Shown: positions 15,405 to 17,072 of the stretch, one piece after another
How positions within the stretch are numbered: the first letter of the stretch is position 1
Layout: every line of letters begins with the position of its first letter
DNA from: Microbacterium sp. W4I20
GTDB taxonomy: Bacteria; Actinomycetota; Actinomycetes; Actinomycetales; Microbacteriaceae
Assembly: GCF_030816505.1 (NCBI RefSeq)
Contig: NZ_JAUSYB010000001.1
Location: 496,001 to 560,000, forward strand
Reading direction: 5' to 3'
Length of the DNA: 64,000 nt
Notes under the pieces: generated by a model
Told to the model about the DNA's origin: nothing
Databases searched by the model: none
What the model saw: the letters and a program-made list of their open reading frames with translations, nothing else
Translations under genes and position numbers: made by a program

Positions 15405-16166
15405 ATGCAGCAATCGCAAGCGCCCGAGCCCGCCGAGAACATTTCGGCGCACACCCGCCGACGCTTCCTCATCGCTGCCGGCGCGGGTGTCGCGGTGACT
15501 GCCGCAGGCATCTGGTTCGCGGCGACGGCCGAGATTCCCGACGGTCCGACCGCCGCTGCGGGCGCGGACAACCCGAGGGGATTGGTCCGGTACGACCCTG
15601 TCTATCACCGCGCGGTGAGCGGGCTGGAAGCGCCCCTGGGGTTCGACGACTGCGGGCATTCCACCACCCGGGCGAGCCGCGACACAGCAGGAAGCGACCG
15701 CCACACCGTGACGCCCGTCATAGACCGGTTCGTCATTCATCACACGGGTACGACGGCAGACCAGCTGGACTTCCTCTCGCGTTGCAACATGCGATCCTCG
15801 GCTCCCACGTTCTATCTGCGGCACGACGGATCCGTCATCGAGCTGATTCGCCCTGGCGCGAAGCCGTCGTCAACCGGAGCTGACTGGAACTGGCGATCGC
15901 TGGCGGTGGAGACTCTGAACGCGACGGGGGCGCCTGACTACGCCGTGACAGAGGCTCAGCTGGAAGAGCTGGCACAGATGATCGCGTGGCTCGCGACGTA
16001 CGACGGCGAGCGTCTGGACGGCGTGCCGGTGTCGTTCACGATCGACAGGGAGCACGTCATCACCCACCAGGAGACGTGGTCGGGGACCGAATGCCCCGGT
16101 CCGTATCTGCAGTCCCGGTTGGACGACATCGTGGCCCGCGCCAGGGAGATCTTTCAGAAAAACTGA
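15405..16166 (+). CDS. Tat-exported N-acetylmuramoyl-L-alanine amidase (amidase_2/PGRP fold)
   Basis: 253 aa. The N-terminus has a twin-arginine signal, HTRRRFLIAAGAGVAV (about residues 16-31), followed by a hydrophobic stretch, so it is folded before export. The catalytic domain shows zinc ligands in FVIHHTGTTADQ (about 107-118), THQETWSGTECPG (His about 223, Cys about 232), and NMRSSAPTFYLRHDGSVIEL between them. It would cut the amide bond between MurNAc and the stem peptide in the cell wall. The tatA and tatC genes are at 28.8-29.9 kb. Its last two codons and stop lie inside the proposed dif site. Confidence 0.88.
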   Translation: MQQSQAPEPAENISAHTRRRFLIAAGAGVAVTAAGIWFAATAEIPDGPTAAAGADNPRGLVRYDPVYHRAVSGLEAPLGFDDCGHSTTRASRDTAGSDRHTVTPVIDRFVIHHTGTTADQLDFLSRCNMRSSAPTFYLRHDGSVIELIRPGAKPSSTGADWNWRSLAVETLNATGAPDYAVTEAQLEELAQMIAWLATYDGERLDGVPVSFTIDREHVITHQETWSGTECPGPYLQSRLDDIVARAREIFQKN

Positions 16167-16188
16167 CATAATGTGCATTATCGGCTTA
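16161..16188 (-). other. dif: Putative dif site (XerC/XerD chromosome dimer resolution)
   Basis: Read on the minus strand this is an 11-base arm TAAGCCGATAA, a six-base centre TGCACA, and an 11-base arm TTATGTCAGTT. The 11-6-11 layout and the inner arm bases (ATAA ... TTATGT) match Escherichia coli dif, whose arms end in GC--ATAA and begin TTATGT-A. The E. coli comparison is from memory. The stretch is strikingly AT-rich for this genome. It overlaps the amidase stop codon and lies upstream of a leaderless promoter. If correct, it marks the replication terminus. An operator or weak hairpin is the alternative, since the inner ATAATG/CATTAT is palindromic. Confidence 0.8.
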
Positions 16189-16214
16189 TGTCCGAGAGGG
16201 GTTAAGTCGGTGGC

Positions 16215-16226: not shown

Positions 16227-17072
16227 ATGAACGGAAGCAACGTCGAGATCGACTGGGAAGCCGCCCGACACGCCAATCTGCAGAATTGGGACGACCGCGT
16301 GCCGCTGCACGAAACGGCCTACGGACTCGACGCCTACGACGACCCGAAATACCTGAGCGACGTCGTGCGACACGACCTGCCTGTCTTGGCGCCGTTCTTG
16401 CCTGGCCGCACCCTCGCCGGACTCGATCTCTGCCACCTCCAGTGCCACATCGGGACGGACACCGTCTCGCTGGCACGAGCCGGCGCCACCGTCACCGGCG
16501 TGGATTTCTCCCACCCGGCGCTGGCTGCGGCAGCACAACTCGCCCAGCGCGCCGGCGTGGCGGCCACCTGGGTTGAGGCCGACGTACTCGACGCCCGGAG
16601 CGCCGTCATCGGCGACTTCGATGTCGTCTACACGAGCATCGGTACGATCACCTGGCTCGCCGACCTGGATCGGTGGGCGGCTCAGATCGCGGCGCTGCTC
16701 CGTCCGGGCGGCACGTTCTTCATCCGCGACGGGCATCCGGCTCTCTACGCGCTCGACGAGGAAGCCCCGACACTGACCACTCGCTACCCGTACTTCGGCG
16801 ACGGGCGCGCGCAGCAGTGGGACGACGAGTCGACCTACGTCGGCGACGGCAAGGTCGCTCATCCTCGCACCTTCGAGTGGCCCCACCCGCTGTCCGAGAT
16901 CCTGGGTGCTCTTCTCGGCGCCGGTCTCCGTCTCCTGCACTTCGACGAGGGCCGGACGCTGCCGTGGCGCTTCAGTCCGCGGATGGTCGAGGTGGATGGC
17001 GATTTCGCGTGGCCGGAGCCGGAGCGCAATCTCGTGCCGTGCACCTACACGATCGTCGCGCGGCGGGAGTGA
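16227..17072 (+). CDS. Class I SAM-dependent methyltransferase
   Basis: 281 aa. The SAM-binding core is GLDLCHLQCHIGTDTVSLARAGATVTG (motif I, split over about residues 71-97), FSHPALAAAAQLA after it, and DFDVVYTSIGTITWL (motif post I, about 130-144). FFIRDGHPALYAL near 170 is typical of a common uncharacterised methyltransferase group. The LHLQCHIGxDT version of motif I is more often seen than the classic GxGxG in this group. Substrate unknown. The gene is alone on its strand. Confidence 0.87.
   Translation: MNGSNVEIDWEAARHANLQNWDDRVPLHETAYGLDAYDDPKYLSDVVRHDLPVLAPFLPGRTLAGLDLCHLQCHIGTDTVSLARAGATVTGVDFSHPALAAAAQLAQRAGVAATWVEADVLDARSAVIGDFDVVYTSIGTITWLADLDRWAAQIAALLRPGGTFFIRDGHPALYALDEEAPTLTTRYPYFGDGRAQQWDDESTYVGDGKVAHPRTFEWPHPLSEILGALLGAGLRLLHFDEGRTLPWRFSPRMVEVDGDFAWPEPERNLVPCTYTIVARRE

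Follow-up and report, generated by a model that had tools for sequence, protein, structure and literature searches.

The 28-mer at positions 16161-16188 of the window is almost certainly the dif site of the chromosome. The window is the whole stretch of DNA analysed, 64,000 nucleotides long (C1:496001-560000), from a genome of two contigs, C1 with 4,181,137 bases and C2 with 129,823 bases. A sequence-only reading had proposed a likely dif, with the replication terminus inside the window, and this was supported by the position opposite dnaA, the unique core and the conservation in the genus. The site is an ordinary dif, correctly spotted by that reading and newly located; it places the replication terminus of the genome and adds a feature invisible to gene-only annotation. 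Coordinates are collected in Table 1.

Table 1. Features in the window (window positions) and additional dif-like sites of the genome (contig and position)
Feature	Position	Strand	Remarks
N-acetylmuramoyl-L-alanine amidase gene	15405..16166	plus	PF01510 (Amidase_2)
dif site (almost certain), 28 bp, TAAGCCGATAATGCACATTATGTCAGTT	16161..16188	minus	Basis: layout, uniqueness, position, conservation
XerD-side arm, TTATGTCAGTT	16161..16171	minus	Enzyme assigned by homology to known dif sites
6-bp centre, TGCACA	16172..16177	minus	Commonest centre in the genus
XerC-side arm, TAAGCCGATAA	16178..16188	minus	Enzyme assigned by homology to known dif sites
Methyltransferase gene, other side of dif	16227..17072	plus	
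Clear extra site	C1:2211298	plus	
Clear extra site	C1:2213771	plus	
Clear extra site	C1:1770606	plus	
Clear extra site	C1:3952611	minus	
Clear extra site	C2:13882	minus	
Clear extra site	C2:115742	minus	
Weak extra site	C2:119679	minus	Perfect XerD arm, poor XerC arm

Identification of the chromosomal dif site

The proposed 11-6-11 layout was found as described, the minus strand reading TAAGCCGATAA-TGCACA-TTATGTCAGTT. The 28-mer contains 18 A+T bases, a number reached or exceeded by 40 of the 63,973 28-mers of the window, in agreement with the AT-richness noted before. It is also the sole place in the window with three mismatches or fewer, and 0 of 100 shuffles produced any, so the single occurrence was confirmed. 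A chance AT-rich palindrome, or a terminator or promoter at a gene end, is extremely improbable and was rejected: although the site does lie at a gene end and overlaps a weak promoter-like match of the minus strand, the shuffles gave no match, no terminator-like site was found, and the sequence is kept across the genus despite differing neighbour genes.

Genome-wide, the core has one exact match, at this site, and the next best is on C2 with one mismatch. The expectation that no equally good site would be found elsewhere held for the centre, since all other sites differ from TGCACA, but not for the arms, with equally good ones at, e.g., C2:13882, which is identical at all 8 + 8 inner arm bases. 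The gene dnaA was located at C1:2,575,380, adjoined by a cluster of parS-like sites. On C1, the angle from dnaA to the 28-mer is 182.3 degrees, only 2.3 degrees or 26.7 kb off the antipode, as anticipated for a terminus.

Both contigs of this genome also carry plasmid-type sites, which raises the question of whether the 28-mer could be a plasmid-type or mobile-element Xer site within the chromosome instead of dif. This is very unlikely, since TGCACA, the centre in 50 of 57 site-bearing genus genomes, is the centre of no other dif-like site in this genome, the location at the dnaA antipode speaks against a mobile-element site, and the window holds no second site (up to three mismatches) to delimit an element. 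An Xer-dependent element integrated at dif (IMEX) was rejected on the same count, as it needs two bounding sites.

In Kono et al. 2011 (PMC3025954), dif was predicted in 66 of 66 single-chromosome Actinobacteria genomes, and none had been confirmed by experiment in this phylum as of that year. The sequence suggested there for Frankia alni, the sole published dif compared, is identical to the site at 24 of 28 positions, 22 of them consecutive. The two are alike in the 28-bp length, the 22-base core, the terminus position and the single core copy, and differ in the outermost arm bases (positions 1, 3, 26 and 27).

Profile searches showed that the genome encodes XerD, at 342 bits against a cut-off of 329.6. 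They also gave a XerC-like protein, whose 305.1 bits do not reach the curated value of 335.15 although XerC is still its best family. Several features of a chromosomal dif were found: a host with XerC and XerD (the XerC-like protein being below its own cut-off), arms and centre of the 28-bp type of the phylum, one copy per chromosome, a terminus position and retention in relatives. By analogy with the known family, XerCD would bind the site, FtsK would activate them, and chromosome dimers would be resolved there. Recombination between sister chromosomes would give a dimer, the two dif copies of which would meet at the division septum; TAAGCCGATAA would be bound by XerC and TTATGTCAGTT by XerD, and strand exchange inside TGCACA would split the dimer into two monomers.

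GC skew around the site

A GC-skew switch at the site had also been expected. The two arms do differ in sign, while the switch itself is weak, displaced and not sharp at the site. In samples of 16-20 kb, the mean skew was +0.008 on one arm (n = 16) and -0.009 on the other (n = 15), with p = 0.02, using 31 of the 32 sampled stretches after one overlapping stretch was dropped. The sampled skew goes negative between 0.42 and 0.45 Mb, that is, 0.06-0.09 Mb away from dif at 0.512 Mb, and no extremum of the cumulative skew, followed from 480 to 580 kb, coincides with dif. Within the window, the skew is slightly positive before the site (+0.013) and slightly negative after it (-0.014).

Conservation in related genomes

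The suggested conservation in the genus was borne out, with a match in 57 of 59 genus genomes and none for the reversed-pattern control; in the more complete genomes, matches were found in 52 of 52. Exactly one match was present in 47 of the 58 relatives, more than one in 9 and none in 2. Counting one match per genome from the genus-search listing, the centre was TGCACA in 50 of the 57 genomes (own genome included), TGTACA in 5, TCCACA in 1 and TGCACC in 1. At the family level, 197 of 199 genomes contained a match to a looser pattern, with 3 control matches in all.

The position relative to dnaA was determined in 17 other genus genomes, taken from 23 searched with dnaA; the remaining 6 have dnaA and the site on different contigs, and two of the 17 (G005 and G022) have further contigs. 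The median distance from the antipode was 9.8 degrees, and 12 of 17 were within 20 degrees. Since dif lies up to 44.9 degrees off the antipode, some chromosomes of the genus are lopsided. Of the 18 genomes with both on one contig, 14 have dif and dnaA reading in the same direction (p = 0.03), so inversions flipping dif seem uncommon.

In the four genomes of one genus (g15; G147, G202, G245 and G072, L154-L157), dif is twinned with a second, inverted dif-like site that starts at a fixed distance of 49 bases. In all four, among the matches listed, the XerC arms face each other, the centres differ and the flanks are unlike.

Flanking genes

The gene ending at the site, described before as a cell-wall amidase gene, matches Pfam Amidase_2. 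Its overlap with dif, reported as covering the last codons and stop, is real and comprises the stop TGA and the codon AAC, 6 of the 28 bases, in the XerD-side arm; the plural "last codons" is a slight overstatement because the overlap is one codon plus the stop. For the neighbour comparison, 30 of 71 genus matches were taken with 1.5 kb on each side and 29 were used. The amidase gene adjoins dif in only 1 of the 29 relatives, where its stop precedes the site, and the methyltransferase gene is near dif in 4 of 29. The overlap with the amidase stop codon is therefore most likely a local accident, and a functional coupling between dif and the amidase was rejected.

A weak sigma-70-like promoter match overlaps dif at 16177-16205 on the minus strand, its second hexamer being the GATAAT within the XerC arm. 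It agrees at 9 of 12 positions, with 0.1 such matches expected.

Additional dif-like sites in the same genome

The additional sites matter more than dif itself and are the part that deserves a second look. A relaxed in-register motif gave five perfect matches in the genome (dif included), two with one mismatch and none with two. At three mismatches it reaches background (29 matches, against 26 in all for the control), and the site at C2:119679 is doubtful because it is one of these 29. The pattern shifted by one base out of register, used as a control, gave 2 matches versus 1 in its own control. The centres of the extra sites are all other than TGCACA; TCGTAA is found at C1:2213771 and C2:115742, and also at C1:1770606, there beside a changed XerD arm.

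The 130-kb plasmid-like C2 carries two clear sites and the weak one (L029:13882-13909, L034:15742-15769 and L034:19679-19706), all in one orientation. The site C2:13882 lies 1.6 kb from a relaxase gene, and the best relatives of this relaxase (best 40 of 422 records) are on actinobacterial plasmids. The integrase profile PF00589 was found at seven places in the genome, none of them on C2. On C1, the sites 2211298 and 2213771 (L018:11298-11325 and L018:13771-13798) are in direct orientation, 2.5 kb apart. Comparison of the 2.6-kb stretch around these two sites with plasmid DNA gave no match, and comparison of the dif region with plasmids gave one weak match only.

Survey of actinobacterial plasmids

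A total of 28 plasmids were scanned: 20 of the best 40 relaxase matches (from 422 records; not a random sample) and 8 chosen by accession. In the first set of 16 plasmids, exactly one site was found in 12 (9 perfect and 3 with one mismatch) and none in 4, with no match for the reversed control. In the second set of 12 records, also with a control of 0, one of the three circular plasmids has one site (one mismatch), while SAP1, pRHL1, pRHL2, pRHL3, pREL1, pROB01 and pROB02 (linear, 3.07 Mb) had none (0/7). These seven, linear according to their records, are presumably telomeric. Two further linear-labelled records in this set carry one site and two identical sites, respectively. Over both sets, 2 of 3 linear-labelled records other than the seven have sites. 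A simple motif search thus detects dif-like sites in actinobacterial plasmids with zero background in the reversed-motif control.

Exactly one site was present in 13 of 18 circular-labelled plasmids versus 0 of 7 telomere-type linear ones (Fisher p = 0.0016), a comparison confounded by host group: Rhodococcus and Streptomyces are the hosts of all seven linear plasmids, and among circular plasmids from Rhodococcus 2 of 4 carry a site. Against all linear-labelled records, 2 of 10 of which have sites, the difference gave p = 0.016. The 13 plasmid centres compared (12 from the first set and C2:13882) comprise 12 different sequences, none being TGCACA or TGTACA. The distance from these 13 sites to the relaxase gene was 1.6-3.0 kb in four cases and 6-62 kb in the others.

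The two identical sites of NZ_CP014575.1 (labelled linear; L281 and L282) are 106 kb apart, inside a repeat 2.7 kb or more in length (99.8% identity). A test of whether they stem from a circle left unclosed found the two 10-kb stretches similar over no more than about 2.7 kb, at 99.8%.

Contigs with several sites and contig breaks

Some contigs beyond the named plasmids carry several sites, unlike the pattern of one per replicon. A set of 21 genomes (own genome plus 20 picked for extra sites) gave 85 matches, with 0 in the control; these counts are not a frequency because the 20 were picked for having extra sites. In 19 of the 21, exactly one match has the centre TGCACA or TGTACA; the centre is TCCACA in G019, and G095 lacks any such centre. 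Neighbouring non-dif sites have the same orientation in 18 of 20 pairs on 12 contigs with at least two sites (p = 0.0004), a count that omits the chromosome-size G000:C1 (2 of 3 alike) and G065:C1 (0 of 1) and keeps G099:C2 (over 1 Mb). Adding both omitted contigs gives 20 of 24 pairs (p = 0.0015), and leaving out the weak C2 site gives 17 of 19 (p = 0.0007).

Contigs of two genomes end at dif-like sites. In G180 (end of L216, starts of L219 and L220), there are one left flank and two right flanks: one contig end runs into two others, and the 77-base overlap extends up to and including base 9 of the XerD arm. In G144 (end of L228, start of L227), with two left flanks and one right flank, two contig ends are alike from the XerD arm onward and differ in the centre and XerC arm. 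These patterns suggest either recombination at the sites or repeated copies.

Comparison with known Xer sites and interpretation

In published plasmid Xer sites, the inner arms are conserved and the centres are not, according to PMC11724359, where all enterobacterial replicons above 242 kb have an Xer site and those of 30-100 kb tend to lack one. The extra sites resemble these Enterobacteriaceae xrs (cer, psi and the 28-bp sites of large plasmids) in the conserved inner arms, the variable centre and, in the named set, usually one site per circular plasmid. They differ in that a site is present here in many plasmids of about 60-160 kb, whereas those of 30-100 kb tend not to carry one in that source; the comparison covers the site sequences themselves. 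With the pdif sites of Acinetobacter, as described in PMC13141974 and PMC11705084, they share dif-like arms, a variable 6-bp spacer and sometimes several sites per replicon. However, pdif sites flank modules and lie in alternating orientation, and their recombination requires identical or nearly identical spacers, whereas the alternation of pdif modules was not found here, 18 of 20 pairs being co-oriented, and 12 of 16 plasmids of the first set are single-site. The actinobacterial extra sites resemble both plasmid Xer sites and pdif, with neighbours mostly not alternating.

We infer that the extra sites are plasmid multimer-resolution sites, with private centres that would prevent recombination with dif. 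As such, they would be of a known kind, in a group for which no report of dif-like plasmid sites was found among the top matches of a literature search mostly without subscription journals, which is weak evidence of absence. Alternatively, the extra sites could be the ends of exchangeable modules, like Acinetobacter pdif, and not multimer-resolution sites. Several sites per replicon in some genomes, the coincidence of contig ends with sites in G180 and G144, and the defence genes adjoining some sites would fit such modules, yet the single site in most plasmids of the first set and the co-orientation of neighbours point the other way, and the defence-gene link comes from few loci without a control set, so that no enrichment is claimed. 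Module ends are rather unlikely on this balance.

Multimer resolution by private centres can be extended to a tentative scheme, which is conceivable but which we would not yet favour, for actinobacterial circular replicons: these would share the XerCD arms, each plasmid lineage would have its private 6-bp centre, and a shared centre would mark the chromosome. One recombinase pair could then resolve all dimers without fusing plasmid and chromosome, equal centres, such as the TCGTAA present on both C1 and C2, would let segments move between replicons, and same-orientation sites and contig breaks would be the traces of such movement. The pattern of private centres offers a direct test of how plasmids might share the host XerCD without merging into the chromosome.

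Genes near the additional sites

A sigma-factor gene lies between C1:2211298 and C1:2213771, and a CBASS-like operon (SAVED-HNH effector, E1-E2 and cyclase) beyond the second site. In G019, another genome of the genus, a dif-like site (L134:9102-9122) was found at most 200 bases from a CBASS set of the same types (SAVED-HNH, cyclase and E1-E2), and an inverted XerD-like arm follows a few bases after it. Near other sites, a type III restriction system (G053) and a weak SIR2-like match (C2:115742) were found. A DUF1016-type nuclease gene (L029:10247-11356) is also near a dif-like site and corresponds to PADLOC PDC-S02 (this copy tested). Broken-looking relatives of the DUF1016 type, tails near L034:14700 and L137:252-449 and a piece near L132:8596, bring the dif-like sites with such a neighbour to four, and DNA similarity between the loci partly supports this relationship.
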